Assembly (NCBI GenBank): GCA_017550645.1
Contig: JAFZOI010000016.1
Coordinates: 1-64,000 of the forward strand
DNA length: 64,000 nucleotides
Source: Oscillospiraceae bacterium
Lineage (GTDB): Bacteria > Bacillota > Clostridia > Oscillospirales > Oscillospiraceae
Direction of reading: 5' to 3'
The notes beneath the pieces were generated by a model. It worked only from the letters and a program-made list of their open reading frames with translations. It was not told the DNA's origin and ran no database searches. Within the stretch, counting starts at the first letter, position 1. Each line of letters starts with the position of its first letter. Shown in pieces: positions 5,861-49,992 of this stretch. The translations under genes and the position numbers were made by a program.

Positions 5861-5886
5861 AGCCCCCGATTTCTCCCAATTTTCTA

Positions 5887-5914
5887 TTGACAATCGCCCG
5901 CGCTATGATAAAAT
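5887..5914 (+). promoter_or_regulatory. Sigma-A promoter of the folate operon
   Basis: TTGACA (5887-5892), 16-nt spacer, TAAAAT (5909-5914). Expected start near 5921 places the riboswitch at the extreme 5' end of the transcript. Confidence 0.8.
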
Positions 5915-5924
5915 TGAATCACAA

Positions 5925-6025: not shown

Positions 6026-6051
6026 CGAACAGGACATGCGCTTTATGGCGT

Positions 6052-6092
6052 CTTTTCCCGTGTCGGCGCGGGGAAAGGCGTCTTTGTTTTTT
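6052..6092 (+). terminator. Riboswitch-controlled terminator
   Basis: CTTTTCCCGTG pairs with CGCGGGGAAAG (11 bp with two wobbles, loop TCGG), followed by a T-rich run at 6081-6092. The 3' arm GCGGGGAAA can instead pair with downstream TTTTTTCCCGC, giving a competing fold that could act as an antiterminator. Confidence 0.7.
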
Positions 6093-6129
6093 CCCGCGGC
6101 TTCGATCAAAAAGAAACGAGGCGTTGAAC

Positions 6130-7422
6130 ATGAACTACGACGAATCCCTGCACTTTATCCTCGACACGCCCAATCCCGGCGCGGTCTGGGAACGCAACGT
6201 CATGGAGAACCTGCTCGCCAAGCTCGGCGATCCGCAGGAGAAGGTCCCGCACTACGTCCACGTCGCGGGCACGAACGGGAAAGGCTCCGCCTCGGCGTTC
6301 ATGGCCTCCGTCCTGCGCAAGGCGGGCTACCGCACGGGGCTCTACACCTCCCCCTTCATCCAGAGGTTCAACGAGCGCATCCAGGTAGACGGCGTGCAGA
6401 TACCCGACGACGAGCTCGCCGAGATAACGACCGAGATCGCCGCCGCGACCGACGAGATCATGGCGATGGGCTTTCGCAGGCCGACGATATTCGAGCTCAT
6501 CACGGCGCTCGGCTTCATGTGGTTCGCCCGCACGGAGTGCGACGTAGTCGTGCTCGAGGTCGGCATGGGCGGCAGGCTCGACGCGACCAACGTCATTAGG
6601 ACGCCCGACGTCGCGCTCATCATGAACATCGGCTTCGATCACATGGAATTTCTCGGCGACACTCTCGAGGCCATCGCCGGAGAGAAGGCCGGGATAATCA
6701 AGCCCGGCGGAGACGTCGTCGTCTACGGGCAGAGCGAGAACGTCGAGAAGGTATTTGAAGATACCTGCCGCGAGAGGGGCTGCCGCATGTTCCTGGCAGA
6801 CTCCTCGCTTGCGAAGATAACCTCCGTCGGCGTCGAGGGCACGCGCTTTGACTATAAGCAGCGCGAGGACCTCTTTATCTCCCTTCTCGGAAAGTATCAG
6901 ATAGGCAACGTCACCGTCGCCATCGAGGCCTGCGACGTCCTGCGCGACAAGGGCTTCCACATAACCGAGGAAAACCTCCGCGACGGCCTGCGCGACGCCT
7001 ACTGGCCCGGCCGCATGGAGCTGCTGCGGAAAGACCCCGTCGTCATCGTCGACGGAGCGCACAATCCGCAGGGCGTCGAGGCGCTCTGCGAGAGCCTTGA
7101 GCAGCTCTTCCCCGGAGAGAAGTTCACGTTCGTGCTCGGCGTTCTCGCCGACAAGGACTATTCCGGCGACATCGCCATCGCCGCGCCGTTTGCAAAGAGC
7201 TTTTACACCGTCACCCCGCCGAGCTACCGCGCTCTCTCGGGCGAGGCGCTCGCGGACGAGATAAGAAAGCACGCCGACGTGCCCGTGACGGCCTGCGCCG
7301 ACATCCCCGGGGCGCTCGACACCGTCCTCGCCGAGGCCGCGCCGGACGACAGGATAGTCATATTCGGCTCGCTCTATCAGGAATGCGTGGTACGCGCATA
7401 TTTCGGGAGGGATACATTTTGA
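6130..7422 (+). CDS. folC: Folylpolyglutamate synthase / dihydrofolate synthase FolC (copy 1)
   Basis: 430 residues, cytoplasmic Mur-ligase-fold enzyme adding glutamate to folates. ATP P-loop VAGTNGKGSASAF, TSPFIQRFNERIQVDG folate loop, EVGMGGRLDATNVI, GFDHMEFLGDT, and the C-terminal VDGAHNPQGVEAL. The start is ATG 6130, with GAGG 8 nt upstream; an in-frame TTG at 6124 is too close to that site. First gene after the THF riboswitch, overlapping the folT start. It keeps the usual GMGGRLDATN residues, unlike copy 2, so it is the better candidate for the housekeeping activity. Confidence 0.93.
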   Translation: MNYDESLHFILDTPNPGAVWERNVMENLLAKLGDPQEKVPHYVHVAGTNGKGSASAFMASVLRKAGYRTGLYTSPFIQRFNERIQVDGVQIPDDELAEITTEIAAATDEIMAMGFRRPTIFELITALGFMWFARTECDVVVLEVGMGGRLDATNVIRTPDVALIMNIGFDHMEFLGDTLEAIAGEKAGIIKPGGDVVVYGQSENVEKVFEDTCRERGCRMFLADSSLAKITSVGVEGTRFDYKQREDLFISLLGKYQIGNVTVAIEACDVLRDKGFHITEENLRDGLRDAYWPGRMELLRKDPVVIVDGAHNPQGVEALCESLEQLFPGEKFTFVLGVLADKDYSGDIAIAAPFAKSFYTVTPPSYRALSGEALADEIRKHADVPVTACADIPGALDTVLAEAAPDDRIVIFGSLYQECVVRAYFGRDTF

Positions 7423-7982
7423 AGAAGCGTACGACCTTCGGCGAGGACATCCGCGTCCTCGGGCGCGTCAAGGTCATAACGATCTGCGCCATGCTGGTCG
7501 CGATGGGCGTCGTCATCGGCATCCTCTGCAAGAACTTTCTCACCTTCGGCATCTACTACCGCTTCACGCTTGAAAACCTGCCCGTCTTCTTCGCGGCGAT
7601 AGCCTTCGGTCCCTTCGCCGGAGCCGCAGTCGGCATCTGCGAGGACGTCGTGAGCTGTCTCTGCTCCACCAATCCCGCCGTCAATCCGTTAATCACGGTC
7701 GGCGCGGCGGCAGTCGGCTTCTTCGCGGGCCTCATAAGCCACCACGTCTCCTTCAAGAGCGACAACTGGCGCATAGCCGCCTCGATCATAGCCGGCCATC
7801 TCATCGGTCAGGTCGCCATCAAGAGCATCGCGAAGATAGTCATGTTCGGCATGCCGTGGTGGGGCGTCTTCATAGGGCTCGGCTTCTCCGCCGTCGCGGG
7901 GACGATAGAGTTCATCGTCCTGCGCATGCTCTTTAAGAATTCCGCCATTCAGCAGGGCCTCAAGGGGATTTATAAGAAATGA
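7419..7982 (+). CDS. folT: Folate ECF transporter substrate-binding subunit FolT
   Basis: About 187 residues, integral membrane S component of an energy-coupling-factor transporter. About five to six hydrophobic segments; YYRFTLENLPVFFAAIAFGP and the following GAAVGICEDVVSC are characteristic of the FolT/ThiT-like family. The longer frame from 7383 lies mostly inside folC; a TTG at 7419 has a GGGAGG site 8-9 nt upstream and overlaps the folC stop by 4 nt, so I take it as the start. No ECF ATPase or EcfT gene is nearby, as expected for a group II system with shared EcfAA'T encoded elsewhere. The THF riboswitch supports folate as substrate. Confidence 0.88.
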   Translation: MKKRTTFGEDIRVLGRVKVITICAMLVAMGVVIGILCKNFLTFGIYYRFTLENLPVFFAAIAFGPFAGAAVGICEDVVSCLCSTNPAVNPLITVGAAAVGFFAGLISHHVSFKSDNWRIAASIIAGHLIGQVAIKSIAKIVMFGMPWWGVFIGLGFSAVAGTIEFIVLRMLFKNSAIQQGLKGIYKK

Positions 7983-9241
7983 CTCCGCTGGAATATATAT
8001 CGCAGGATAAGTTTCAGGGCTTCAAGCCCGGGCTCGAGAGGATGCGCGCCCTGCTCAACGGGCTCGGAGAGCCCGAGAAGAAGTTCCGCTGCATCCACGT
8101 CACCGGCACTAACGGCAAGGGCAGCGTCTCCTCCTGTCTGGCCTCCGTCCTCACCGCCGCCGGGTACAGGACCGGGCTTTACACCTCGCCCTACGTCATT
8201 TGCTGGAACGAGCGCGTGCAGGTCGGCGGAGAGTACATCTCCGACGCCGATCTGGCGGACGCCGTCGAGGCGATACGCCCCGTCGCGGACGCGATGGAGG
8301 ACGCGCCGAGCCAGTTCGAGCTGGAGACGGCGATCGCCTTTTGGCACTTTGCCAAGGTCGGCTGCGAGTTCGCCGTCATCGAGGTCGGCATGGGCGGCGC
8401 GTGGGACGCGACAAACGTCATTCCCGCCCCCGAGGCCGCCGTCATTTGCGCGATGGCTCTCGAGCACACGGCCGTCCTCGGCAAGACGCTGGACGCCATA
8501 GCCCGCGTCAAGGCCGGCATCATAAAGCCCGGCTGCAGCGTCGTGAGTTATGCTAACGAGCCCGAGGCCGAGGCCGTCTTCGAAGAGGTCGCGGCGGGAA
8601 ACGGCTGCAGGGTCAGGCGCCCGGACTTCTCGGCGCTCAACGTGACGTGCTCGGAGCTCGACGGGATCACCTTCGACTTCGGGCCGCGAAAGGACCTCTT
8701 CATCCCGCTCGCCGGCTCATATCAGCCGAAAAACGCCGCTCTCGCCGTCACGACGGTCGACGTCCTGCGTGAGCGCGGGATATACATCTCCGAGGACGCT
8801 CTGCGCGAGGGGCTGAAAAACGTCCGCTGGCCGGGCCGCTTTGAGCTGCTGCGCCGCGATCCGATCTTCATTCTCGACGGGAGCCACAACCCGCAGGGGA
8901 TGCAGGTCACGGTCGAGTCGATTAAGCTCCATTTTCCCGGCAGAAAGCTCTGGTTCCTCGTCGGCGTCATGGCCGACAAGGACGTCGCGGGCATAGCGTC
9001 CCTGCTCGGGCCGATGGCCGCCGGCTTCGCCGCCGTCGAGCCGCCCAACTCCCGCGCAATGAAGCCCGCCGAGCTCGCCGCTCTGCTGACCGAGAGGACG
9101 GGAGTGCCCGCAGTCCCGTTCGATACGATAGCGGACGGGGTGCGGTGGGTCGCGGAAAAGGCCGGTCCCGACGGGGTCTGCGCCGCGCTCGGCTCGCTCT
9201 ACTTCTCCAATCAGGTCCGCACGGCCGTTGCGGAGCTTTAA
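7979..9241 (+). CDS. Second FolC-family ligase (paralogue of the operon's first gene)
   Basis: 420 residues, overlapping folT by 4 nt. It carries the family P-loop HVTGTNGKGSVSSC, a TSPYVICWNERVQVGGEY loop and DGSHNPQGMQ, so it is a Mur-ligase-fold FolC relative. It differs at positions usually conserved: GMGGAWDATNVI in place of GMGGRLDATNVI, and ALEHTAVLG where copy 1 has GFDHMEFLG. Likely roles are splitting dihydrofolate synthase and polyglutamylation duties between copies, or a change in preferred substrate (inference). A terminator hairpin follows directly. Present under the same riboswitch as copy 1. Confidence 0.85.
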   Translation: MTPLEYISQDKFQGFKPGLERMRALLNGLGEPEKKFRCIHVTGTNGKGSVSSCLASVLTAAGYRTGLYTSPYVICWNERVQVGGEYISDADLADAVEAIRPVADAMEDAPSQFELETAIAFWHFAKVGCEFAVIEVGMGGAWDATNVIPAPEAAVICAMALEHTAVLGKTLDAIARVKAGIIKPGCSVVSYANEPEAEAVFEEVAAGNGCRVRRPDFSALNVTCSELDGITFDFGPRKDLFIPLAGSYQPKNAALAVTTVDVLRERGIYISEDALREGLKNVRWPGRFELLRRDPIFILDGSHNPQGMQVTVESIKLHFPGRKLWFLVGVMADKDVAGIASLLGPMAAGFAAVEPPNSRAMKPAELAALLTERTGVPAVPFDTIADGVRWVAEKAGPDGVCAALGSLYFSNQVRTAVAEL

Positions 9242-9255
9242 CGCTCACGGAATAA

Positions 9256-9297
9256 AACTCTTCTCCGCTGTCAATAATGGCAGCGGAGAGTTTTTTA
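9256..9297 (+). terminator. Intrinsic terminator of the folate operon
   Basis: Inverted repeat AACTC...TCCGCTG / CAGCGGAGAGTT followed by TTTTT, 15 nt after the second folC stop. Confidence 0.8.
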
Positions 9298-9317
9298 TGC
9301 AAAAAGGAGCGTTTACG

Positions 9318-10088
9318 ATGAATAACGAAGAAAACAGCAAAAAGCGCCGATTCGGACGCGGCGCGCCCATCATAGCCCTGCTGCTCGGACTCGCGCTGCT
9401 CGCGGGAGTCACGACCCGCATCGTCTCGGCCTCTCTCAAGCGCGCGCAGGAAGAGGCGGAGCCCGTCATGAGCGTCGCCACGGCAAAGCCGACCTCGCCT
9501 CAGCGCCCGACTGCCGTACCGAAGACGACGGCCGAAGTTGCGCCCGTGCCGCCCGTGACCGCGGCGCCATCGGTCAAGCCGACCGCGACGCCCGCGCCTA
9601 CTCCCGCGCCGACTCCGACGCCCGCGCCGACCACGGCTCTATCCGAGGACAAGCCCTCTTCCACGGCGCCGACGGCCTTCGTAAGACCCGTCGCGGGGAC
9701 GCTGGAGACGCCGTTTTCCGTTGAGGCGCTGGTCTACAGCAGGGCGATGGCCGACTGGCGCGTCCACACCGGCGCGGATTACGCGGCGGCGCTGGGAGCG
9801 AAGGTCGTCGCAGTCGCGGACGGAGTCGTGCGCGAGGTGCGCGAGGACGTCATGCTCGGCACGACCGTCGTCATAGACCATGGCGGCGAGCTCACGAGCG
9901 TATACGCCAATCTCGCCGCCCTCCCGACCGTATCCGAGGGCGACGCCGTCACGATGGGTCAGACGATAGGCTCCGTCGGGGCGACCGCGCTCTCCGAAGC
10001 CGCCGACGTCTGCCACCTGCATTTCGAGATGCTCAAAAACGGCGAGCTCATCGACCCGGAGGACCTTTTCTCCGGCCCCGCGAGATGA
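9318..10088 (+). CDS. M23-family peptidoglycan-hydrolase-like protein, SpoIIQ-like
   Basis: 256 residues from the ATG that follows AAGGAG by 8 nt. Short basic N terminus, one transmembrane segment (about residues 14-35), a long Pro/Thr/Ala linker (TPAPTPAPTPTP type), then an M23 domain with WRVHTGADY (H-x3-D zinc ligands) and CHLHFEM (HxH). The VYSRAMADWRVHTGAD context resembles clostridial SpoIIQ, which sits in the forespore membrane and faces SpoIIIAH during engulfment. The zinc ligands look intact, as in clostridial SpoIIQ. A vegetative LytM-type protein is the alternative. Confidence 0.75.
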   Translation: MNNEENSKKRRFGRGAPIIALLLGLALLAGVTTRIVSASLKRAQEEAEPVMSVATAKPTSPQRPTAVPKTTAEVAPVPPVTAAPSVKPTATPAPTPAPTPTPAPTTALSEDKPSSTAPTAFVRPVAGTLETPFSVEALVYSRAMADWRVHTGADYAAALGAKVVAVADGVVREVREDVMLGTTVVIDHGGELTSVYANLAALPTVSEGDAVTMGQTIGSVGATALSEAADVCHLHFEMLKNGELIDPEDLFSGPAR

Positions 10089-10301: not shown

Positions 10302-10378
10302 GCGCACTATGTGTGCCATATCGGCACACGCGCCCGGAGCATTCTCTCTTGTTTTCGGTTCCGCGGTCTTCCTATAAT
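10302..10378 (+). promoter_or_regulatory. Operator and promoter of solute-binding gene 1
   Basis: A 19-bp perfect palindrome at 10311-10329 (7-bp arms GTGTGCC/GGCACAC, 5-nt centre) contains half-sites TGCCA (10314-10318) and CGGCA (10322-10326), with a degenerate third half-site GCGCA at 10302. Promoter: TTGTTT (10349-10354), 18 nt, TATAAT (10373-10378). The operator centre is about 53 nt upstream of the -10 box, an activator-like position. Confidence 0.75.
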
Positions 10379-10413
10379 AGAATTATAAAACGATTAAGAA
10401 AGGAGATCGCAAC

Positions 10414-12180
10414 GTGAAAAAGGTATCAATAATCATTCTGGCCGTCATCCTCGTGCTCACTTTATTCTCTGCCTGCGGCACGAACGGCGGCACGACTCCG
10501 ACTCAGGCCCCGACCTCCGCCCCGGACGGCTCACAGACGCCCGGCACTCCCGATTCTCCCGACACCCCGGACGCTCCCGACGTTCCCGAAACGCCCTTCA
10601 AGGTCGACGAAGTCGGGATAGCCATGGAGCCGTACGACTGGCCGCTGCCTCTTACGGACGACCATGACACGCCTCTCACCTATTGGTGGACCACGAGCTC
10701 TCCGCAGTACATCCCGGCCGACAAGGAGTACGGCGACACGGACCTCCCCATCGAGGTCGAAAAACGCACGGGCGTAAAGATCGAATACGTCTACGTTCCC
10801 TCCACGTCGCGCAAGGAGACGTTCTCGATCCTTCTGGCCGCAGACGACCTCTGCGACATGATGACCTACGCGACCGCGTACTATCCCGGCACGGCCCTCC
10901 AGATGGTCGAAGACGGCTACTTCGCCAATATCTACGACTACAGGGAATACATGCCGAACTACCTGTATCAGTCCAAGTGGGCCGACCCTGACGACAGGGC
11001 GACCTACGAATCCGTCTTCTATGAGGACGATCTTATCCCGGTAGCGTGGGTCCTCTGGGAAGGCAGCATCGTTACCGACACGGGCTACTGCGTGCGTCAG
11101 GACTTCCTCGACAAGGTCGGCATGAAGTCCGAGGATCTCAAGACGTGGGACGACTATGTTGAAGCGATGCGCGCCGTCAAATCCGCGATCGACACCGTCG
11201 AATTCCCGCTCTGGATGAGCGCCATGATCGAGACCAATAACTACTGGTACTTCAACTCCTTCGAGAACATCAGCGTCATCACGACGATAGCGATGCCGCC
11301 CGTCTTCTTCCGCGACGGCGAGCTCGTCATGGGCTGCACCTCCGAGGGCGACAGGCAGTTCGCCGAGAAAATCAGCTCCCTCTTTGCCGAGAAGATGGTC
11401 AACCCCGACTGGCAGGGCTACTACTTCGCTCAGGCCTTCGAGGCGCACACCCTCAACAACGAGGTCTTCTGGCAGGGCCACGGCACGACCTTCGAGAAAG
11501 TCAACAAGAACTGCTCCGACCCGAACTGCAACTGGATCCCCGTCGGAAAGCCCCTCGTCACCGCCGATCAGGTAGTCCATGCGGGCACGATAAGGAGCCG
11601 CACGAGCACGGGCAACTGCGCCGTCTCCGTCAAGAACACGAATATCGAGCTCTGCATGAAGTGGATAGACTATCACTACAGCCCGAGCGGCTGGGAGCTC
11701 TTCTCCTACGGTCCGGAAGGTCTGATCGTCTATAAAGACGAGAACGGCGTGCGCCACAACACCGAATGGGCGCTGAGCAATCCCGACGGCATCGAGCTTT
11801 CCGGCCTCGTGTCGATCTACACGGCAAGCCGCTTCCTCGATCCCTGCATCTGCGTGTATGACGTTCAGCTCCTCAATCCGGACGGAGAATCCGCCATCGC
11901 CGCCGTCGAGTTCTGGACCGAGTTCGACAGGCAGCACTATGACCGCGCGGGCGCTCTTCCCATCGGCGTTCGCCTCTCCACGGAGCAGAGCGAGGAAGTC
12001 AACAAATACCGCGCCGACATCATAACCTACGTTGCCGAGACCTTCGCGAGCTTCGTCGACGGCTCGACGCCGATGAGCGAGTGGGGCAACTATCAAAAGA
12101 CCCTCGAGCAGATGGGCCTGAAAGAGATACTCGCGGCCTATCAGGAGGCTTACGACGACTATCTGGCTAAAATAGGCTGA
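10414..12180 (+). CDS. Extracellular solute-binding lipoprotein, array member 1
   Basis: 588 residues from a GTG start with AAGGAG 8 nt upstream. Lipoprotein signal with lipobox LFSAC, then a Thr/Pro/Asp-rich linker (TPDSPDTPDAPDVP type, to about residue 60), then a large type-II periplasmic-binding-like domain ending in the GLKEILAAYQEAYDDY helix seen in LplA-like carbohydrate-binding proteins. It is the first of five tandem paralogues and shares long blocks with them (PGTALQMVEDGYF, FNSFENIS, DRAGALPIGVRLSTEQSEEV). No permease or ATPase gene is adjacent. A sugar or oligosaccharide ligand is likely from the family; its identity cannot be read. Confidence 0.85.
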   Translation: MKKVSIIILAVILVLTLFSACGTNGGTTPTQAPTSAPDGSQTPGTPDSPDTPDAPDVPETPFKVDEVGIAMEPYDWPLPLTDDHDTPLTYWWTTSSPQYIPADKEYGDTDLPIEVEKRTGVKIEYVYVPSTSRKETFSILLAADDLCDMMTYATAYYPGTALQMVEDGYFANIYDYREYMPNYLYQSKWADPDDRATYESVFYEDDLIPVAWVLWEGSIVTDTGYCVRQDFLDKVGMKSEDLKTWDDYVEAMRAVKSAIDTVEFPLWMSAMIETNNYWYFNSFENISVITTIAMPPVFFRDGELVMGCTSEGDRQFAEKISSLFAEKMVNPDWQGYYFAQAFEAHTLNNEVFWQGHGTTFEKVNKNCSDPNCNWIPVGKPLVTADQVVHAGTIRSRTSTGNCAVSVKNTNIELCMKWIDYHYSPSGWELFSYGPEGLIVYKDENGVRHNTEWALSNPDGIELSGLVSIYTASRFLDPCICVYDVQLLNPDGESAIAAVEFWTEFDRQHYDRAGALPIGVRLSTEQSEEVNKYRADIITYVAETFASFVDGSTPMSEWGNYQKTLEQMGLKEILAAYQEAYDDYLAKIG

Positions 12181-12210
12181 TGACCACTGTCATTGACGAC
12201 TGACCCGAAA

Positions 12211-12245
12211 AAAAGGCGCGGCGGAACTTATCCGCCGCGCCTTTT
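12211..12245 (+). terminator. Intrinsic terminator after array member 1
   Basis: 15-bp perfect stem AAAAGGCGCGGCGGA / TCCGCCGCGCCTTTT with a 5-nt loop. It shows member 1 is a separate transcription unit. Confidence 0.85.
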
Positions 12246-12319
12246 GGCATACTATGTGCCAATATGGCACTCTTTTTTGCATCTTGTATCTTGTTTTCTT
12301 TACTTAACAATTCTATAAT
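12245..12319 (+). promoter_or_regulatory. Operator and promoter of solute-binding gene 2
   Basis: Three half-sites TGGCA (12245-12249), TGCCA (12257-12261) and TGGCA (12265-12269) with N7 and N3 spacing; the last two form the perfect palindrome GTGCCA-N3-TGGCAC (12256-12270). Promoter TTGTTT (12291-12296), 17 nt, TATAAT (12314-12319). Confidence 0.78.
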
Positions 12320-12392
12320 ATTTGCGTAGGAAAAAAGACACAGTTCCTGCAAATCTCAAAAAGCAATTCTTTTCGAAAGGAGACTTAACCAA

Positions 12393-14159
12393 GTGAAGAA
12401 AGTTCTTGCACTGGTGCTGGCCGTTCTCTTCGTCCTCGGACTGTTCGCGGCCTGCGGCACCAACTCGAACAATCCGACCCCCGCGAACCCGACCGATCAG
12501 GGAACTCCGGGCACTCCGGATACTCCGGGCACCCCCGACACTCCGGACACCCCGTCCGATTCCGGCCTCCCCTATAAGGTCGACGAGCTGGGGATCCCCA
12601 TGGAGCCCTATGACTACGAGCTCCCGCTGACCACCGAGGACGACGACACCATCCTCTCCTACTGGTGGTGCACCTTCTCCCCGCAGCTGATCCCCGACGG
12701 TCAGGAATACGGCGACACCCCGCTGCCTCAGGAAGTCCTCAAGCGCACCGGCGTGCACGTTGAGTACATCAACGTCCCGTCGACCAGCCGTCAGGATACC
12801 TTCGGCGTCCTCGTCGCCTCCGACGACCTCTGCGACATCATGGCCTGCGCCAACTACTATCCCAAGGGCACTCTTGCGATGATCGAAGACGGCTACTTCG
12901 TCAACATCTACGACCACAAAGAGTGGATGCCCAACTACCTCTACCGCGGCAAGTGGGAGCATCCCGAGGACACGGCCACCTATGAGTCCGTTTACTACAC
13001 CGACACGATGGTTCCTCTGGCTCACGTCATGTGGGACGATCACGTCGTCACAGACTCCGGCTTCTGCGTCCGTCAGGATATGCTCGACAAGGTCGGCCTG
13101 AAGGCCTCTGATCTCCACACCTGGGACGACTTCACCGAAGCGATGAAGGCCGTCAAGAGCGCGATCGACACCGTCGAGTTCCCCCTCTGGCTGGCTGAAA
13201 TGATCGAGATCAACAACTACTGGCAGTTCAACTCCTTCGAGAACGTCTGCCTGCTCTTTACCTCCCTGCCCCCGATCTACTTCAGGGAAGGCAAGCTTGA
13301 GATAGGCTGCACCTCCGAAGGCGACAAGCAGTTCGCCCAGCAGCTGAATTACTACTACAAGGAGAAGCTCCTCAACCAGGATTGGCAGAGCTACTTCTAT
13401 GCTCAGGTCTTCAAGGCCCACTCCCTCAACAACGAGACCTTCTGGCAGAGCGTCGGCGCCACCTCCGTCGTTGACTACAACGTCAACTCCACCGACCCGA
13501 ACTGCAACTGGGTCCCCGTCGACAAGCCCCTCGTGACCGAGGATCAGGTCGTTCACGCCGGCACGATCCGCAGCCGTACCACCACCGGTAACTGCGGCTT
13601 CGCCACCAAGAACAAGAACCTCGAGCTCGCGATGAAGTGGATCGACTACCGCTACAGCCCCTCCGGCTGGGAGCTCTTCGCCTACGGCGCGGACGGCATC
13701 ATCGTTGAGAAAGACGCCAACGGCGTCCGCCACAACACCGAGTGGTCCCTCAGCGAGCCCGACGGCATGGATCTGGCCGCCCTCGTTTCCATCTACACCT
13801 CCAGCCGCATGGTCGAGCCGGGCATCTGCGTGCCCGACGCCGCGCTCCTCAACCCCGCCGGCGAGCCCGCCCTTGCCGCCTGCGATTACTGGACCAAGTT
13901 CGATGAAAAGCACTACGACCGCGCCGGCGCGTTGCCTCTGGGCGTGCGTCTCGACGTCGATCAGTCCGCCGAGGTCGCCAAGTACCGCACCGACCTCGCC
14001 ACCTACATCGCCGAGAACTACGGCAGCTTCATAATCGGCAGCAAGTCCTTCGACGAGTGGCAGAATTACCAGGATACTCTGGATCAGCTCGGACGTCAGG
14101 AAGTCCTCGCTGTCTATCAGGAAGCCTACGACGATTACCTTGCCCGCAAGGCCGGCTAA
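12393..14159 (+). CDS. Extracellular solute-binding lipoprotein, array member 2
   Basis: 588 residues, GTG start, AAAGGAG site. Lipobox LFAAC and a TPGTPDTPGTPDTP linker, then the same binding domain. By eye it is the most divergent member: it has CTFSPQLIPDGQEYGD and ACANYYPKGTLAMIEDGYF where the others have YSPQYIPADKEYGD and ATAYYPGTPLQMVEDGYF, and VCLLFTSLPPIYF in the strand where the others read ISVITTIALP. Those changes lie in the recognisable domain body rather than the linker, so a different ligand is plausible (inference). Codon use is strongly biased to C-ending codons, suggesting high expression. Confidence 0.85.
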   Translation: MKKVLALVLAVLFVLGLFAACGTNSNNPTPANPTDQGTPGTPDTPGTPDTPDTPSDSGLPYKVDELGIPMEPYDYELPLTTEDDDTILSYWWCTFSPQLIPDGQEYGDTPLPQEVLKRTGVHVEYINVPSTSRQDTFGVLVASDDLCDIMACANYYPKGTLAMIEDGYFVNIYDHKEWMPNYLYRGKWEHPEDTATYESVYYTDTMVPLAHVMWDDHVVTDSGFCVRQDMLDKVGLKASDLHTWDDFTEAMKAVKSAIDTVEFPLWLAEMIEINNYWQFNSFENVCLLFTSLPPIYFREGKLEIGCTSEGDKQFAQQLNYYYKEKLLNQDWQSYFYAQVFKAHSLNNETFWQSVGATSVVDYNVNSTDPNCNWVPVDKPLVTEDQVVHAGTIRSRTTTGNCGFATKNKNLELAMKWIDYRYSPSGWELFAYGADGIIVEKDANGVRHNTEWSLSEPDGMDLAALVSIYTSSRMVEPGICVPDAALLNPAGEPALAACDYWTKFDEKHYDRAGALPLGVRLDVDQSAEVAKYRTDLATYIAENYGSFIIGSKSFDEWQNYQDTLDQLGRQEVLAVYQEAYDDYLARKAG

Positions 14160-14170
14160 GCTCCTTTCGG

Positions 14171-14211
14171 GAAAAGGCGCGATGAAAAGTCATCGCGCCT
14201 TTTCTTTTTTT
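14171..14211 (+). terminator. Intrinsic terminator after array member 2
   Basis: 15-bp stem GAAAAGGCGCGATGA / TCATCGCGCCTTTTC with 4-nt loop and a following T run. Nearly the same stem recurs after members 3 and 5, as expected for duplication of whole gene units. Confidence 0.88.
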
Positions 14212-14217
14212 GTCCTC

Positions 14218-14287
14218 TGGCATACTTTGTGCCATATATGCAAATTTTGTAAAATCTATTGCTTATTTTTTGGGCATATCGTATGAT
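14218..14287 (+). promoter_or_regulatory. Operator and promoter of solute-binding gene 3
   Basis: Half-sites TGGCA (14218-14222), TGCCA (14230-14234) and a degenerate ATGCA (14238-14242), again N7 and N3. Promoter TTGCTT (14259-14264), 17 nt, TATGAT (14282-14287). Confidence 0.7.
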
Positions 14288-14297
14288 AATGGTATCA

Positions 14298-14318
14298 TTT
14301 ACGAAACATTTTCGTAAA
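14298..14318 (+). promoter_or_regulatory. Palindrome at the 5' end of the member 3 transcript
   Basis: Perfect 9-bp arms TTTACGAAA/TTTCGTAAA around a 3-nt loop, about 4 nt after the predicted start and just upstream of the ribosome site. The same arms recur before member 4 and a paired variant before member 5. Could be a 5' mRNA hairpin or a second operator. Confidence 0.7.
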
Positions 14319-14339
14319 AAAGGAAGGAGGCATTCCCCA

Positions 14340-16076
14340 GTGAAGAAGATCTTGGCCCTCGTGCTCGCAGTCGTCTTCGTGCTTGCTCTGTTCGCCGCCT
14401 GCGGCAACACCCCGAAGCCGGCGACGCCCGACACTCCGAGCAATCCGAACACCCCGGATACCCCCGACACCCCCGGCTCCTCCGACGGTCCCTACGCCGT
14501 CGACGAAGTCGGGATCGCCAAGGAGCCCTATGAGTGGCCCCTCCCGCTGACCGACGATGACGACAAAGTTCTGACCTACTGGTGGTCAACGTATTCCCCG
14601 CAGTACATACCCGCGGACAAGGAATACGGCGACACCGCGCTTCCCGTCGCCATCAGGGAAATGACGGGCGTCAACGTCGAATGGCAGAACATCCCGTATG
14701 CCACCCGCAAGGACGTCTTCGGCGTTCTGCTCGCGTCCGACGACCTGTCAGACATGATGCACTACGCAACCGCGTACTATCCCGGCACCCCGCTGCAGAT
14801 GGTCGAGGACGGCTACTTCGTCAACATTCTCGACTACAAAGACTGCATGCCCAACTACCTCTATCAGGCTAAATGGAAGTACCCTGACGACAGGGCGACA
14901 TACGAGGGCGTCTTCTATGAGGACAACGTGATTCCCGCTATATGGTCCCTGAGCAAGGATCCGATAGAGACCGACGTCGGCTGGGGCGTCCGCGCCGACA
15001 TGCTTGCCAAGATAGGCAAAAAGCCCGAAGATCTGAAGACATGGGACGATTTTCACGAGGCCCTCAAGGGCATCAAGTCCGCTATCGACACAGTCGAGTT
15101 TCCGATGTGGGTGAGCTCGATGATCGAATCCAACCACTACTGGCAGTTCAACTCCTTCGAGAACATCAGCGTCGTCACCCTGATCGATCTGCCGATGTTC
15201 TATTACAGAGACGGCGAGCTGGTCATGGGCTGCTCCTCCGAGGGCGACAGACAATTTGCCGAGTACATGAGCCAGCTCTTCGCCGAAAAGCTCGTCAACC
15301 CGGACTGGCAGACCTACTTCTTCGCTACCTTCTATGACCGCACCTACAGCAACCAGACCTTCTGGCAGGGCATTCAGCCGACATACAAGGACACCAACGC
15401 CAAGACCGACGACCCTAACTGCGACTGGCAGCCCGTCGGCAAGCCTCTAGTGACCGAAGATCAGGTCGTTCACGCCGGCACCATCCGCAACCGTACCTCC
15501 GCAGGCAACATCTGTGTCGCCGCCAAGAACCACGATGTAGAGCTCTGCCTGAAGTGGTGCGACTTCCGCTTCGCCCCCAACGGCTGGGAGCTCTTCGCCT
15601 ACGGGCCCGAGGGCCTCATCATCGAGAAGCTCCCCGACGGCACGCGCCGCAACACCGACTGGGCGCTCAACAATCCCGACGGGATGGAGCTCCCGGGACT
15701 CATAGCCGTCTATACCTCTTCCCGCATGACCGAAGCTCTGCTGACGGTCCTTGATACGCAGTATCTAAACGAGAACGGCAAGTTTGCCCTCGAGGCCGTC
15801 GAGTTCTGGACCGAATTCGACAGGCAGCACTATGACCGCGCAGGCGCTCTTCCCGTCGGCGTCCGTCTCTCCACGGAGCAGAGCGAGGAAGTCAACAAAT
15901 ACCGCGCCGACATCATCACGTTCGTCGCCGAGCAGTATTCAAGCTTTATCGACGGGTCAAAGCCGATGAGCGAATGGGACAGCTACCAGGCAGCCCTCGA
16001 CCAGATGGGCCGTCAGGAAGTGCTCGCCCTATATCGTGAAGCGGTCGAAGATTACAACGCCAAGAGGGCCGGCTAA
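14340..16076 (+). CDS. Extracellular solute-binding lipoprotein, array member 3
   Basis: 578 residues from GTG 14340, with GGAAGGAGG upstream; the longer open frame from 14259 runs through the promoter region and is rejected. Lipobox LFAAC, the shortest linker of the five, then the common binding domain. Its C-terminal part (EFWTEFDRQHYDRAGALP and the following STEQSEEVNKYRADII) is almost the same as member 1, while its N-terminal signal peptide matches members 4 and 5, so the copy may be a recombinant between lineages (inference). No transport partner gene nearby. Confidence 0.85.
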   Translation: MKKILALVLAVVFVLALFAACGNTPKPATPDTPSNPNTPDTPDTPGSSDGPYAVDEVGIAKEPYEWPLPLTDDDDKVLTYWWSTYSPQYIPADKEYGDTALPVAIREMTGVNVEWQNIPYATRKDVFGVLLASDDLSDMMHYATAYYPGTPLQMVEDGYFVNILDYKDCMPNYLYQAKWKYPDDRATYEGVFYEDNVIPAIWSLSKDPIETDVGWGVRADMLAKIGKKPEDLKTWDDFHEALKGIKSAIDTVEFPMWVSSMIESNHYWQFNSFENISVVTLIDLPMFYYRDGELVMGCSSEGDRQFAEYMSQLFAEKLVNPDWQTYFFATFYDRTYSNQTFWQGIQPTYKDTNAKTDDPNCDWQPVGKPLVTEDQVVHAGTIRNRTSAGNICVAAKNHDVELCLKWCDFRFAPNGWELFAYGPEGLIIEKLPDGTRRNTDWALNNPDGMELPGLIAVYTSSRMTEALLTVLDTQYLNENGKFALEAVEFWTEFDRQHYDRAGALPVGVRLSTEQSEEVNKYRADIITFVAEQYSSFIDGSKPMSEWDSYQAALDQMGRQEVLALYREAVEDYNAKRAG

Positions 16077-16089
16077 TCTCCTTTCGGGA

Positions 16090-16128
16090 AAAAGGCGCGA
16101 TGATTTTCATCGCGCCTTTTCTTTTTTT
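16090..16128 (+). terminator. Intrinsic terminator after array member 3
   Basis: 13-bp stem AAAAGGCGCGATG / CATCGCGCCTTTT and a 7-T run. Confidence 0.88.
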
Positions 16129-16140
16129 GCCATGTTTTTC

Positions 16141-16242
16141 ACGTATTGCCATCCTCTGGCAATACGTGTGCCAAAATGGCATATTTTAAGGTGATTATAA
16201 TATAATATGTCTCTTGCCAAATCTGCCTCGGGATTTTATAAT
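16141..16242 (+). promoter_or_regulatory. Extended operator and promoter of solute-binding gene 4
   Basis: A 27-bp perfect palindrome (16141-16167, 11-bp arms ACGTATTGCCA/TGGCAATACGT) overlaps the shared motif: TGGCA (16157-16161), TGCCA (16169-16173), TGGCA (16177-16181), spacing N7 and N3. Promoter TTGCCA (16214-16219), 17 nt, TATAAT (16237-16242); another TATAAT occurs at 16201. Confidence 0.75.
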
Positions 16243-16251
16243 AAAAATAAA

Positions 16252-16272
16252 TTTACGAAATAATTTCGTAAA
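16252..16272 (+). promoter_or_regulatory. Palindrome at the 5' end of the member 4 transcript
   Basis: Same 9-bp arms as before member 3 (TTTACGAAA/TTTCGTAAA) with loop TAA, beginning about 3 nt after the predicted start. Confidence 0.7.
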
Positions 16273-16295
16273 AATTCGGAAAGGAGACAAACCAA

Positions 16296-18059
16296 GTGAA
16301 GAAGATCTTTGCGCTCGTGCTTGCAGTCGTCTTCGTGCTTGCTCTGTTCGCCGCCTGCGGCAATACCCCGTCTACGCCGTCGACGCCCGACACTCCGAGC
16401 AATCCGTCCACGCCTGATACGCCGAGCAACCCGAGCACTCCGGATACCCCGGACACCCCGGCTACTCCGGAAGGTCCCTTCGCGGTCGATGAGAAGGGCA
16501 TCGCCAAGGAGCCGTATGAGTGGCCCCTGCCCCTCACCGAAGACAACGACACCGTTCTGACGTACTGGTGGTCCACCTATTCCCCGCAGTACATCCCCGC
16601 GGACAAGGAATATCAGGACACCGATCTCCCGCAGGAGATCCTTAAGCGCACCGGCGTCAACGTCGAATGGCAGAACATCCCCAACGGCAGCCGTCAGGAA
16701 ATGTTCGGCGTCCTGCTCGCCTCCGACGACCTGTCAGACATGATGCACTACGCGACCGCGTACTATCCCGGCACCCCGCTGCAGATGGTCGAGGACGGCT
16801 ACTTCGTCAACGTCCTTGACTACAAGGATTGCATGCCCAACTACCTGTACCAGTCCAAGTGGAAGGATCCCTCCGACAAGGCGACCTATGAGTCCGTCTT
16901 CTATGAGGATGATCTCGTTCCCGTTATCTGGTCCCTCTGGAAAGAGCCCATCCAGACCGATACCGGCTGGGGCGTCCGCGCCGACATGCTTGCCAAGATC
17001 GGCAAGAAGCCTTCCGATCTGAACACCTGGGACGATTTCTATGAGGCCCTCAGAGGCATCAAGTCCGCCATCGACACCGTTGAGTTCCCGATGTGGATGA
17101 GCTCCATGATCGAGACCAACCACTACTGGCAGTTCAACTCCTTCGAGAACGTCTCCGTCATCACCACCATCGCCCTCCCGATCATCTATTATCGTGACGG
17201 CGAATTGGTCATGGGCTGCACCTCCGAAGGCGACAGGCAGTTCGCTGAGTTCATGAGCAAGCTCTTCGGTGAGAAGCTCGTCAACCCCGACTGGCAGACC
17301 TACTTCTTCGCCACCTTCACGGCTCAGACCTATGCCAACGAGACCTTCTATCAGGGCATTTCCCCGAACTACAAGGACACCAACGAGAAGACCGACGATC
17401 CGAACTGCGATTGGCAGCCTGTCCATAAGCCCCTCGTGACCGCCGATCAGGTCGTCCACGCCGGTACCGTCCGCAGCCGTACCTCCACCGGTAACATCTG
17501 CGTCGCCGCCAAGAACCACGACGTCGAGCTCTGCCTCAAGTGGATCGACTATCGCTTCGATCCCAACGGTTGGGAACTCTTCGCCTATGGTCCTGATGGC
17601 AAGGTCATCTACAAGGATGCCGACGGCGTCCGCCACAACACCGAGTGGGCGCTCAGCAAGCCCGACGGCATGGAGCTTGCCGCTCTGATGAGCGTCTACA
17701 CCACCTCTCGTCTCACCGAGTGCCTGCTGGCCGTCACCGACGCCCAGTATCTCGGCGAGAACGGCCACTTCGCCATGGAAGCCATCGAGTACTGGACCAA
17801 CTTCGACAAGGAGCACTATGACCGTGCCGGCGCGCTGCCCATGGGCGTCCGCCTGAGCACCGAGCAGTCTGAGGAAGTCGGAAAGTATCGTGCCGACCTC
17901 ATCACCTACGTCGCCGAGAAGTTCTCCGGCTTCGTGGATGGCTCCACCCCGCTGAGTGAGTGGGACAACTATCAGAAGACCCTTGATCAGATGGGCCGTC
18001 AGGAAGTCCTCAAGATCTACGCCGAGGCCGTTGAAGATTACAACGCCAAGCAGGGCTGA
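16296..18059 (+). CDS. Extracellular solute-binding lipoprotein, array member 4
   Basis: 587 residues from a GTG with AAAGGAG upstream. Lipobox LFAAC, then a linker built from a repeated nine-residue unit STPDTPSNP, then the common domain. It is closest to member 5: signal peptide and linker are almost the same at nucleotide level and most of the domain is shared, so the two are probably the youngest duplicates. Differences concentrate in short blocks, for example FATFTAQTYANETF against FGQAFSAHTYNSETF in member 5. Role: surface-anchored receptor for an ABC importer whose membrane parts are not in this window. Confidence 0.85.
   Translation: MKKIFALVLAVVFVLALFAACGNTPSTPSTPDTPSNPSTPDTPSNPSTPDTPDTPATPEGPFAVDEKGIAKEPYEWPLPLTEDNDTVLTYWWSTYSPQYIPADKEYQDTDLPQEILKRTGVNVEWQNIPNGSRQEMFGVLLASDDLSDMMHYATAYYPGTPLQMVEDGYFVNVLDYKDCMPNYLYQSKWKDPSDKATYESVFYEDDLVPVIWSLWKEPIQTDTGWGVRADMLAKIGKKPSDLNTWDDFYEALRGIKSAIDTVEFPMWMSSMIETNHYWQFNSFENVSVITTIALPIIYYRDGELVMGCTSEGDRQFAEFMSKLFGEKLVNPDWQTYFFATFTAQTYANETFYQGISPNYKDTNEKTDDPNCDWQPVHKPLVTADQVVHAGTVRSRTSTGNICVAAKNHDVELCLKWIDYRFDPNGWELFAYGPDGKVIYKDADGVRHNTEWALSKPDGMELAALMSVYTTSRLTECLLAVTDAQYLGENGHFAMEAIEYWTNFDKEHYDRAGALPMGVRLSTEQSEEVGKYRADLITYVAEKFSGFVDGSTPLSEWDNYQKTLDQMGRQEVLKIYAEAVEDYNAKQG
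16368..16487 (+). repeat. 27-bp in-frame repeats in the member 4 linker
   Basis: Codes for two copies of STPDTPSNP followed by STPDTPDTP between the lipobox cysteine and the binding domain. The related stretch in member 5 is 18387-18506. Repeat number and linker length differ among the five genes. Confidence 0.75.
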
Positions 18060-18076
18060 TAATTCGTCATCTTTCC

Positions 18077-18114
18077 GGAAAGGCGCAGTCACATGACTGC
18101 GCCTTTCCCTTTTT
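18077..18114 (+). terminator. First terminator after array member 4
   Basis: 14-bp stem GGAAAGGCGCAGTC / GACTGCGCCTTTCC with a short loop and T run. Confidence 0.85.
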
Positions 18115-18165
18115 AGTCCCTTCCCGCCCTTCAAGCCTCTTCCCGCTCCGGGAAGGGACTTTTTT
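18115..18165 (+). terminator. Second terminator after array member 4
   Basis: 12-bp arms AGTCCCTTCCCG / CGGGAAGGGACT separated by 22 nt and followed by TTTTT. A related hairpin follows member 5. Confidence 0.7.
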
Positions 18166-18189
18166 ATTTGCGTACGTTTTCAGCCGCTC

Positions 18190-18260
18190 CGGCACATTTT
18201 GTGCCAGAGTGGCAAATTGTTTAACTGCCTATTGATTAATATATTAAATAATTTTATAAT
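18190..18260 (+). promoter_or_regulatory. Operator and promoter of solute-binding gene 5
   Basis: Half-sites CGGCA (18190-18194), TGCCA (18202-18206) and TGGCA (18210-18214), spacing N7 and N3. Promoter TTGATT (18232-18237), 17 nt, TATAAT (18255-18260). Confidence 0.75.
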
Positions 18261-18271
18261 GCGATAGTTAA

Positions 18272-18290
18272 TTGCGAAAACATTTCGCAA
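18272..18290 (+). promoter_or_regulatory. Palindrome at the 5' end of the member 5 transcript
   Basis: 8-bp arms TTGCGAAA/TTTCGCAA with loop ACA. Relative to members 3 and 4, A has become G and the partner T has become C, so pairing is kept, which argues that the symmetry is functional. Confidence 0.7.
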
Positions 18291-18314
18291 CAATTTCGAA
18301 AGGAGATAAGACAA

Positions 18315-20081
18315 GTGAAGAAGATCCTCGCGCTCGTGCTTGCAGTCGTCTTCGTGCTTGCTCTGTTCGCCGCCTGCGGCAATACCCCGTCTACGCCGTC
18401 GACGCCCGACACTCCGAGCAATCCGTCCACGCCTGACACGCCGAGCAACCCCGACACTCCGGACACCCCGGATACCCCGGCTACTCCGGAAGGCCCCTTC
18501 GCCGTTGACGACAAGGGCATCTGCAAGGAGCCCTATGAGTGGCCCCTGCCCCTCACCGACGATGAAGAGACCGTTCTGACCTACTGGTGGTCCACCTATT
18601 CCCCGCAGTACATCCCCGCGGACAAGGAATACGGCGACACCGAGCTCCCGCAGGCCATCAAGGCAAAGACCGGAGTCAACGTTGAGTATCAGAACATCCC
18701 CAACGGCAGCCGTCAGGAAATGTTCGGCGTCCTGCTCGCCTCCGACGATCTGTCAGACATGATGCACTACGCGACCGCGTACTATCCCGGCACCCCGCTG
18801 CAGATGGTCGAGGACGGCTATTTCGTCAACGTCCTTGATTACAAGGATTGCATGCCCAACTACCTCTATCAGGCCAAGTGGCGCGATCCCAGCGACAAGG
18901 CCACCTACGAGTCCGTCTTCTATGAGGACGACCTCGTTCCCGTCATCTGGTCCATGTGGGCCGACCCCATCCAGACCGATACCGGCTGGGGCGTCCGCGC
19001 CGACATGCTCGCCAAGATCGGCAAGCAGCCTTCCGACCTGAAGACCTGGGACGACTTCTATGAGGCCCTCAAGGGCATCAAGTCCGCCATCGACTCCGTC
19101 GAGTTCCCGATGTGGATGAGCTCCATGATCGAGACCAACCACTACTGGCAGTTCAACTCCTTCGAGAACATCTCCGTCATCACCACCATCGCTCTCCCGG
19201 TCATATTCTACCGCGACGGCGAGCTGGTCATGGGCTGCACCTCCGAAGGCGACAGACAGTATGCCGAGTACATGAGCAAGCTCTTCTCCGAGAAGCTCGT
19301 CAACCCCGACTGGCAGGCTTACTTCTTCGGTCAGGCTTTCTCCGCTCACACCTATAACAGCGAGACCTTCTATCAGGGCATTTCCCCCACCTACAAGGAC
19401 ACCAACAAGCAGACCACCGACCCGAACTGCGATTGGCAGCCTGTCCAGAAGCCCCTCCAGACTGAGGACCAGGTCGTCCACGCCGGTACCGTCCGCAGCC
19501 GTACCGCCACCGGCAACATCTGCGTCGCCGCCAAGAACCACGACGTCGAGCTCTGCCTCAAGTGGTGCGACTTCCGCTTCGCCCCCAACGGCTGGGAGCT
19601 CTTCGCCTACGGTCCCGAGGGTCTCGTCGTTGAGAAGGACGCCGACGGCGTCCGCCACAACACCGAGTGGGCCCTCAGCAAGCCCGACGGAATGGAGCTT
19701 TCCGCTCTCATGAGCCTTTACACCGCTTCCCGCCTTGTCGAGGCCCTTATGTGCGTCGAGGATTCCCAGTACCTCAATGAGGATGGCCACTTCGCCATGG
19801 AAGCCATCGAGTTCTGGACCAACTTCGACAAGGAGCACTATGACCGTGCCGGCGCTCTGCCTCTCGGCGTCCGCCTGAGCACCGAGCAGTCCGAGGAAGT
19901 CGGCAAGTATCGCGCCGACCTCATCACCTACGTCGCCGAGCAGTTCGCCGGCTTCGTGGACGGCTCCAACCCGATGAGCAACTGGGATAACTACCAGAAG
20001 ACCCTTGATCAGATGGGCCGTCAGGAAGTCCTGGCCATCTATCAGGAAGCCATCGACGATTACAACGCCAAGCAGGGCTGA
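18315..20081 (+). CDS. Extracellular solute-binding lipoprotein, array member 5
   Basis: 588 residues, GTG start with AAAGGAG upstream. Lipobox LFAAC, STPDTPSNP-type linker, then the shared domain with TYWWSTYSPQYIPADKEYGD, FNSFENISVITTIALP and DRAGALPLGVRLSTEQSEEV, ending in the GRQEVLAIYQEAIDDY helix. It is the last member and the sister of member 4. Two terminators follow, so it is not cotranscribed with the zinc-ribbon gene. The family suggests a carbohydrate receptor; no enzyme gene for glycan breakdown lies next to the array to narrow the ligand. Confidence 0.85.
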   Translation: MKKILALVLAVVFVLALFAACGNTPSTPSTPDTPSNPSTPDTPSNPDTPDTPDTPATPEGPFAVDDKGICKEPYEWPLPLTDDEETVLTYWWSTYSPQYIPADKEYGDTELPQAIKAKTGVNVEYQNIPNGSRQEMFGVLLASDDLSDMMHYATAYYPGTPLQMVEDGYFVNVLDYKDCMPNYLYQAKWRDPSDKATYESVFYEDDLVPVIWSMWADPIQTDTGWGVRADMLAKIGKQPSDLKTWDDFYEALKGIKSAIDSVEFPMWMSSMIETNHYWQFNSFENISVITTIALPVIFYRDGELVMGCTSEGDRQYAEYMSKLFSEKLVNPDWQAYFFGQAFSAHTYNSETFYQGISPTYKDTNKQTTDPNCDWQPVQKPLQTEDQVVHAGTVRSRTATGNICVAAKNHDVELCLKWCDFRFAPNGWELFAYGPEGLVVEKDADGVRHNTEWALSKPDGMELSALMSLYTASRLVEALMCVEDSQYLNEDGHFAMEAIEFWTNFDKEHYDRAGALPLGVRLSTEQSEEVGKYRADLITYVAEQFAGFVDGSNPMSNWDNYQKTLDQMGRQEVLAIYQEAIDDYNAKQG

Positions 20082-20105
20082 TAGCCCCCGTCTTCTTTCC
20101 GAACA

Positions 20106-20176
20106 GAAAGGCGCGATGAATTATCATCGCGCCTTTCCTCTTTTAGCCCCTTTCCCGCCCCGGGAAGGGACTTTTT
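20106..20176 (+). terminator. Tandem terminators after array member 5
   Basis: First stem GAAAGGCGCGATGA / TCATCGCGCCTTTC (20106-20137) with T run; second hairpin CCCTTTCCCG / CGGGAAGGG (20148-20169) followed by CTTTTT. Confidence 0.83.
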
Positions 20177-23721: not shown

Positions 23722-25053
23722 ATGAACTCACAACCCGACTCTAAGCAGCTAACCAACAGCCGCTTCGGAAAATACGGCTGGAGCATGATCATCTATACGA
23801 TGCTCCTGTACTATTTCTGGGCGGGCCTCTGCGTCGACGGACTGAACATCTACCCCGACGCTTTCGCGGCCAGATACGGCATGGATTCCAACGTGCTACT
23901 CGGCTTTGCGACCCCGGCAGGCATCATAGGCATCATAGGCGGCATCCTCTTCGGGCGCATGGTCATCAAGACCGGCGTCAGGCGGATGTGCTCCTGGGCG
24001 CTGATCGTCACGGGCGTGCTCTACGGCATTTTCGGCATTTGCAAAACGCCCGTCATGTACCTCATCGTCCTGACCGCCTTCACCTTCGTCTCCATGGCTT
24101 TCGGTCTCATCGCAACGGCGACGCTGATGGGCAACTGGTTCCCGCGCAAAAAGGGCATAGCCCTCGGCTGGGCGACGATGGGCGCTCCGCTCTGCACAGC
24201 CACCTTCCCCGCCATCGTCAGCGCCCTCTACGGCACGAAGCTCGGCATACCCGGCGGCTCCGCCGTCATCGGCGCAGTCGTCGTTATCCTCGGCATCGTC
24301 TCCTTCTTCTGGATCAAGAACTATCCCGAGGAGGTCGGCGCGTATCCCGACAACATAGCCGAGTCCTCCGAGCAGATGAAGGCTCAGCTCGCCGAGATGG
24401 CCGAGTACAAGAGCCCCTTCACCATCGGAAAGCTCCTCAAGGATAAGGACATGTGGCTCATCTCCCTCGGCTTCGGCCTGCTCTGGATGGTCACGGTCGG
24501 CATCGTCAGCCAGTTCGTCCCCCGCATGATAAGCGTGATGGTCCCGGCGAACATCGCCGCCGGCATGTCCCCCGAGGCCGCCGCGGGCGCAGCCTCCGGC
24601 GTCGCCCTCAAGATGCTCACGATAGCCGCGATCTGCGGCCTCGTCGGCTCCTACGTCTGGGGCTGGCTCGACCAGAAGATAGGCACGAAGCTCGCCTCCT
24701 GCATCTACGCGATAAGCTACATCGTCGCGCTGCTGCTGCTCATCTTCGCCAAGATCCAGGTCCTGACCTACATAGCGATAGTCTTCGTCGGCTTCGGCAT
24801 CGGCGGCCTGCTCAACCTCATGGCGAGCATGGTCATCGCAGTCTACGGCCGCTACGACTTCACGGCCGCCAACAGTCTCGTATCGCCGATCGCTTCGCTG
24901 ATCCAGAAGGCCGCGTTCGTCATCATGGCGGTCGCGCTCGCCAAGTCCGGCGGCGACTACACCGTTCCCTACCTCATCTTCATCGGCATCGACGTCGTCG
25001 GCATGATCCTCCTGCTCTTCGTCACGAATAAGTGCAAGGGCAGGCAGGAATAA
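23722..25053 (+). CDS. MFS transporter, oxalate/formate-antiporter-like (OFA) family
   Basis: 443 residues, about 12 transmembrane segments, GGAGG 6 nt before the ATG. The loop-2 region GRMVIKTGVRRM and the NWFPRKKGIALGWATMGAPL stretch after TM4 are typical of OFA-type major facilitator proteins. A charged cytoplasmic loop (about residues 200-235) splits the two halves. The substrate cannot be assigned by sequence; organic anions or aromatic acids are common for the group. The next gene, 15 nt on, encodes a DAPG/phloretin-hydrolase-like enzyme, so import of its substrate or export of its product is likely (inference). Confidence 0.82.
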   Translation: MNSQPDSKQLTNSRFGKYGWSMIIYTMLLYYFWAGLCVDGLNIYPDAFAARYGMDSNVLLGFATPAGIIGIIGGILFGRMVIKTGVRRMCSWALIVTGVLYGIFGICKTPVMYLIVLTAFTFVSMAFGLIATATLMGNWFPRKKGIALGWATMGAPLCTATFPAIVSALYGTKLGIPGGSAVIGAVVVILGIVSFFWIKNYPEEVGAYPDNIAESSEQMKAQLAEMAEYKSPFTIGKLLKDKDMWLISLGFGLLWMVTVGIVSQFVPRMISVMVPANIAAGMSPEAAAGAASGVALKMLTIAAICGLVGSYVWGWLDQKIGTKLASCIYAISYIVALLLLIFAKIQVLTYIAIVFVGFGIGGLLNLMASMVIAVYGRYDFTAANSLVSPIASLIQKAAFVIMAVALAKSGGDYTVPYLIFIGIDVVGMILLLFVTNKCKGRQE

Positions 25054-25068
25054 GAAAGGAGCGCGAAA

Positions 25069-49976: not shown

Positions 49977-49992
49977 TTCTTCTCTCCTCCTC

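Follow-up and report, generated by a model that had tools for sequence, protein, structure and literature searches.

Five consecutive genes for binding lipoproteins, with no transporter gene beside them, raise the question of which membrane channel their products serve. The genes lie in a 64,000-nucleotide stretch of an Oscillospiraceae bacterium (assembly GCA_017550645.1, contig JAFZOI010000016.1, positions 1 to 64,000; hereafter the window), where they form an array on the forward strand that spans positions 10414-20081. The usual textbook picture of an ATP-binding cassette (ABC) importer pairs a single receptor with a single channel. Genomic evidence indicates that the five genes, together with a paralogue on another contig (C18), probably constitute the receptor set of a split type I (CUT1-like) ABC importer, in which many solute-binding proteins (SBPs) would share a single channel. 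The five open reading frames (ORFs) of the array are the following:

10414-12180, forward strand, SBP lipoprotein 1 (588 residues, GTG start)
12393-14159, forward strand, SBP lipoprotein 2 (588 residues, GTG start), the most divergent of the five
14340-16076, forward strand, SBP lipoprotein 3 (578 residues, GTG start)
16296-18059, forward strand, SBP lipoprotein 4 (587 residues, GTG start)
18315-20081, forward strand, SBP lipoprotein 5 (588 residues, GTG start)

An earlier note, made from the sequence, had described five full-length paralogous lipobox lipoproteins in tandem, all with GTG starts, with members 4 and 5 as the closest pair and member 2 as the most divergent. The ORFs (578-588 residues) and their pairwise identities bear out this description. 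Each GTG start is preceded by a Shine-Dalgarno sequence (5/5); a longer TTG ORF for gene 3, from 14259, would begin on the -35 element of its promoter. All six SBPs, including the copy outside the array, have an LFAAC or LFSAC lipobox with Cys21, which in the array members is followed by a linker of 41-51 residues rich in Pro, Thr, Asp, and Ser. Identities within the array range from 57% to 87%: the pair of members 4 and 5 reaches 87%, at a synonymous divergence (dS) of 0.32, the remaining pairs are 57-79% identical with dS of ~0.6-1.0, and member 2 is 57-64% identical to the others. The ratio of nonsynonymous to synonymous divergence (dN/dS) is 0.19-0.56 for pairs within the array, at dS of 0.3-1.0, and all copies are intact; therefore, the array copies are old, selected duplicates. 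Decaying duplicates were ruled out by the dN/dS values, which are well under 1, and by the presence of zero stops. As the note had also stated, the genes next to the array encode neither a permease or an ATPase nor a glycan enzyme.

The array proteins match the Pfam families SBP_bac_1/8 below threshold. A profile built from the family recovered AlgQ2, AlgQ1, Smon0123, and FusA, with an hmmsearch score of 240 bits to AlgQ2. The predicted structure of the mature part of member 5, with a mean predicted local distance difference test score of 95, matched AlgQ2 at 1e-19 in Foldseek and with a Z score of 26 across 470 residues. The same fold extends over the entire protein in AlgQ1/AlgQ2 of the AlgQ1/AlgQ2-AlgM1M2SS importer, Smon0123, FusA, and Blon_2347 (Z scores of 23-26), whereas the identity of the array SBPs to these proteins is merely 16-18%. 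Profile and modeled fold clearly place the array proteins in the AlgQ/LplA-type (CUT1) SBP class, and the LplA-like relationship given in the earlier note holds over the whole length, with a weak match to the textbook Pfam families. The EF-hand-like calcium-type loop of AlgQ2 (DPNGNGKxDE) was found at the aligned place in none of the 77 array-family members examined, and it is also present in one non-orphan relative (L110). The loop is a feature of AlgQ2 and no strict requirement of the fold class.

The assembly comprises 1.93 Mb in 41 contigs and is 87.5% complete. It contains six SBPs of this family, all orphan: the five of the array and a sixth on contig C18 (C18:67375-69174; 53% identical), which stands alone behind a CobC-type phosphatase gene and cobalamin genes, a location that is the same in the same-genus relatives G001 and G002. 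Eleven permease domains were found in the genome, and their neighbors were judged by inspection. The OppBC-type, PotBC, UgpAE-type, GlnP-, SsuC-, and ModB-like permeases each adjoin a binding protein; the LplB/LplC pair at C18:184115-185951 is the sole permease locus of the genome seemingly without one. Both subunits of this pair contain a BPD_transp_1 domain and an EAA loop (EAAKIDGAG and EESAQLDGAG). A solitary UgpC/MsmX-type ATPase with a MalK-type oligonucleotide/oligosaccharide-binding fold is encoded at C34:26380 (NF008653, 477 bits against a cut-off of 432 bits); its surroundings contain no permease gene. The orphan LplB/LplC permease and the MsmK-like ATPase for which the earlier note had proposed to search the genome are therefore both present.

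We surveyed 150 genomes of the family for the SBP family and for LplB of at least 56% identity. The SBP family was present in 17 genomes and the LplB clade in 16; 16 genomes had both, one had only the SBP, and none had only LplB. The retrieved flanks of the 16 close lplBC loci, which reach up to ~8 kb and are shorter where a contig ends, contain no SBP at any locus. Of 14 more distant LplB loci of the same family, by contrast, 13 have an SBP within 1.5 kb. The Fisher values for co-occurrence (1e-20) and for the difference between close and distant loci (1e-7) overstate independence, because the genomes share ancestry. In nine genomes that were examined further, one close LplB per genome stands against 7-50 matched SBP stretches, some of which belong to one gene in G035; in the sampled parts, 27 SBPs in G063 and 19 in G109 passed the coverage filter. 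The SBP copies in relatives are dispersed and highly diverse.

The phylogenetic trees agree with this association. Within the family, the orphan permeases group together (support 91/89), and the deepest split of their clade separates G063, G035, and G125 from the rest; the SBP tree likewise sets G063 and G035 apart. The nearest permease relatives across the order that have an adjacent SBP are those of the sister family f23 (G462 and G326), in which the permeases are 51-52% identical and the gene order is lplB-lplC-SBP. The SBP of this operon belongs to the SBP family of the array (531 bits with the family model, 172-178 bits with the window model), and it was placed near the G035 members in the tree with modest support. 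The f23 operon is thus of a putative ancestral type. The suggestion of the earlier note that one transporter is served by many receptors is thus supported by the co-occurrence, the non-adjacency, the matching deep splits, and the f23 operon.

The phylogeny of the five genes and their homologues that the note had called for places them in one clade with a partial copy from G001 (100*). Synteny with G001 covers the 3' end of the array and the gene that follows it, at 85% DNA identity. Clade and synteny identify the array as a tandem expansion at the genus level, other genera having expanded sets of their own. Beyond the family, the permease again stands alone in 6/6 loci examined in family f7; LplBC pairs without a detectable neighboring SBP are L226-L231 in this family and L235 and L240-L242 in family f3. 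A single clade of all SBP-less LplB across the order was rejected by an approximately unbiased test (p 0.0002), so either the split state arose repeatedly or family f3 has divergent SBPs that escaped detection. At L134 and L135 of genus g72 (~5848-7710 and 7815-9699), lplC is duplicated by a single lplB in the order lplB-lplC1-lplC2; this lineage could therefore form channels of two compositions.

The transcriptional signals around the array genes bear on whether the receptors are regulated together. They are the following:

10303-10326, forward strand, operator-like site of gene 1 (pattern match, 2 mismatches)
10349-10378, forward strand, sigma-70-like promoter of gene 1 (TTGTTT-18-TATAAT)
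12215-12245, forward strand, terminator-like long GC hairpin after gene 1 (read directly)
12246-12269, forward strand, operator-like site of gene 2 (GGCA-N5-TGTGCC-N4-TGGCA)
12291-12319, forward strand, sigma-70-like promoter of gene 2 (TTGTTT-17-TATAAT)
14169-14206, forward strand, terminator after gene 2 (strong hairpin and T run)
14219-14242, forward strand, operator-like site of gene 3 (pattern match, 2 mismatches)
14259-14287, forward strand, sigma-70-like promoter of gene 3 (TTGCTT-17-TATGAT)
16090-16120, forward strand, terminator after gene 3 (strong hairpin and T run)
16158-16181, forward strand, operator-like site of gene 4 (pattern match)
16214-16242, forward strand, sigma-70-like promoter of gene 4 (TTGCCA-17-TATAAT)
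18077-18108, forward strand, terminator after gene 4 (strong hairpin and T run)
18191-18214, forward strand, operator-like site of gene 5 (pattern match)
18232-18260, forward strand, sigma-70-like promoter of gene 5 (TTGATT-17-TATAAT)
20106-20137, forward strand, terminator after gene 5 (strong hairpin and T run)

Each gene had been credited with its own promoter and terminator. The promoters were found for all five genes, of which a simple promoter scanner flagged only genes 4 and 5, the -35/-10 pairs of the others being found separately. Strong terminators were confirmed for genes 2-5, but not for gene 1, the hairpin of which has only four T.

The 24-base pattern GGCA-N5-TGTGCC-N4-TGGCA, at up to 2 mismatches, matches in the genome solely upstream of the six SBP genes, with a seventh match that overlaps site 5 in reverse; since the pattern was derived from these sites, its four perfect matches arise by construction, and the informative part is that there is no further site. 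The reversed control pattern gave eight matches in the genome. The earlier note mentions neither this shared operator nor the sixth copy, which lies outside the window. The site recurs before the orthologues of the sixth gene in two other species, in flanks that have otherwise diverged. In 6/6 SBP genes, its central TGTGCC precedes the -35 hexamer by 25-41 bases, a position that is most likely that of an activator. A sigma-54 reading of the TGGCA...TGC sites was rejected because the site is partly palindromic and has the sigma-70-like hexamers downstream. Outside the genus, no match to the pattern was found in front of SBP genes, and the regulation would thus be genus-specific.

In the importer that we propose, each lipoprotein would be anchored at the outside of the membrane through its flexible Pro/Thr/Asp-rich tether, catch its own ligand, and hand it to a single LplB-LplC channel that all receptors share and that is encoded at a distance, on C18. 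We infer that all six receptors can dock on this channel, which would probably be powered by the single UgpC/MsmX-type ATPase. The operator shared upstream of each promoter would co-regulate the six receptors, most likely through one activator. The array grew by tandem duplication inside the genus, and the same split, with larger receptor sets, extends across related Oscillospiraceae.

Several observations weigh against this scheme. The lplB promoter on C18 is without an operator site, so that the channel does not obviously share the regulation of the receptors. In G002, the one genome with only the SBP, no lplB was found in an assembly of ~1.4 Mb in some 230 contigs, and two SBPs in relatives sit within ~2 kb of another permease gene. 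Member identity falls to 50%, and therefore not all members need to dock on the same channel. In a mixed case, only one or two of the six would feed LplBC, and the others would have drifted toward roles in dosage, as decoys, or in adhesion; in line with this, member 2 and the sixth copy are divergent, at 50-64% identity. However, all six are intact and under purifying selection and have the operator in common, and we consider the mixed case unlikely. Finally, the incompleteness of the assembly means that a second partner could be missing. That the true partner is a different transporter lost from the assembly is highly improbable, as relatives more than 95% complete again carry the orphan lplBC, again without an SBP.

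Two further alternatives were weighed. Amplification of one binding protein for the dosage of a single ligand would account for the tandem duplication and for the closeness of members 4 and 5. This is very unlikely, given that the dS of the remaining pairs indicates copies that have long been kept apart and that the copies in relatives are so scattered and diverse. The earlier note had also raised surface capture or sensing, in which the lipoproteins would hold ligands at the surface or deliver them to sensors, with few of them, if any, working with a transporter. Separate transcription units with long tethers would suit such a role, and signaling has been proposed for the Bug proteins because there are far more of these receptors than membrane components (PMC5812351). 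By contrast, the receptor-less permease co-occurs almost perfectly with the SBP family, an SBP of the same family lies in the f23 permease operon, and no sensor gene adjoins the array. Capture or sensing is not needed to account for the data, and we regard it as quite unlikely.

As for the ligands of the shared-channel importer, the immediate neighbors of SBP genes were compared with distant control genes of the same stretches in three relatives. FAD_binding_2 was found in 11 of 83 SBP neighbors and in 2 of 100 controls (p 0.004, uncorrected for the number of families viewed). URO-D-like proteins, old-yellow-enzyme-type reductases, and LysR regulators recur among these neighbors. In six further genomes, the flavoenzyme trend was less pronounced, and no flavoenzyme-type neighbors lie beside the array in the window. 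No glycosidase family was among the 25 commonest Pfam families of neighbors and controls, where rarer ones would not show; a glycan-utilization locus was rejected on this ground. The FAD_binding_2 enrichment and the lack of common glycosidases make non-sugar ligands possible, besides the putative sugar ligands that the earlier note implies. A bolder and rather doubtful extension is that this gut and rumen lineage has converted a sugar-type ABC importer into a general-purpose receptor-less port with a changing library of up to ~50 receptors. Instead of sugars, many of these would bind plant-derived aromatics or other small acceptors, to be processed by flavin reductases, old-yellow-enzyme-type reductases, and methyltransferase-like URO-D proteins encoded nearby. 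The flavoenzyme neighbors point to an unexplored nutrient range of rumen bacteria.

In G109, the SBP genes at L153, L154, L156, L159, and L160 are flanked by URO-D-like proteins, and large proteins resembling glycyl-radical enzymes (by eye) are encoded near L159/L160, hinting at demethylation or anaerobic aromatic chemistry. The window itself contains, at 23722-25890 on the forward strand, a major facilitator superfamily transporter gene followed by a gene of the 2,4-diacetylphloroglucinol hydrolase (PhlG) family, which includes phloretin hydrolase. The pair suggests that this rumen bacterium may cleave phloroglucinol- or flavonoid-type ketones.

Among known systems, the family-1 SBP sets of Bifidobacterium infantis for milk oligosaccharides consist of several related SBPs clustered with permeases and glycosidases; the SBPs of the array are likewise clustered, but neither permeases nor glycosidases are present. 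In Pseudomonas, the core operon of the Cbc importer includes an SBP, and the additional SBPs that it recruits are few. The orphan-SBP principle is known from Thomas 2010 (cited in PMC12838199 and PMC3223731), and Cbc is an example of an ABC importer that recruits orphan SBPs (Thomas 2010; Chen 2010, cited in PMC12838199), its single channel likewise working with several SBPs from other loci. The present core lplBC operon differs in that it has no SBP and stands against 6 to ~50 receptors. LplABC/YtcQP-type importers of B. subtilis, which share MsmX (PMC5730181, PMC7658222), have the same permease type and an ATPase encoded apart, as here, where it is probably shared; in the present system, the SBPs, of which there are many versions, likewise lie away from the permease genes. 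The Bug receptors of the TctAB tripartite tricarboxylate transporters (TTT) in Bordetella and Cupriavidus likewise comprise tens of orphan binding proteins with very few membrane components and lineage-wise expansion (PMC5812351). However, TTT systems are secondary transporters with a TctC receptor fold, whereas AlgQ-type SBPs and an ABC permease are found here in Gram-positive-type anaerobes. We found no literature on SBP expansion in Oscillospiraceae. The orphan-SBP and Bug/TTT concepts are already known; the scale, the ABC setting, the missing dedicated receptor, and the spread through related Oscillospiraceae appear to be new. If the proposed importer is real, a split conserved throughout the lineage, in which tens of receptors use each channel, would parallel among ABC systems the expansion of the Bug receptors, and permease counts would badly underestimate the uptake capacity predicted from genomes. 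With the split importer, one could also ask directly which features of a docked receptor a channel must recognize.

Elsewhere in the window, two paralogous FolC-like genes (folylpolyglutamate synthase/Mur-ligase type, by eye) lie on the forward strand at 6124-7422 and 7979-9241, with a small membrane protein between them (7383-7982) that is probably similar to the S component of energy-coupling factor transporters (by eye). An ABC-F ribosomal-protection-like protein, the best match of which is under the curated cut-off, is encoded at 38008-39546 on the forward strand. On the reverse strand, 47806-55267 encodes a complete-looking Opp/Dpp oligopeptide importer with its own, unusually long SBP (810 residues).

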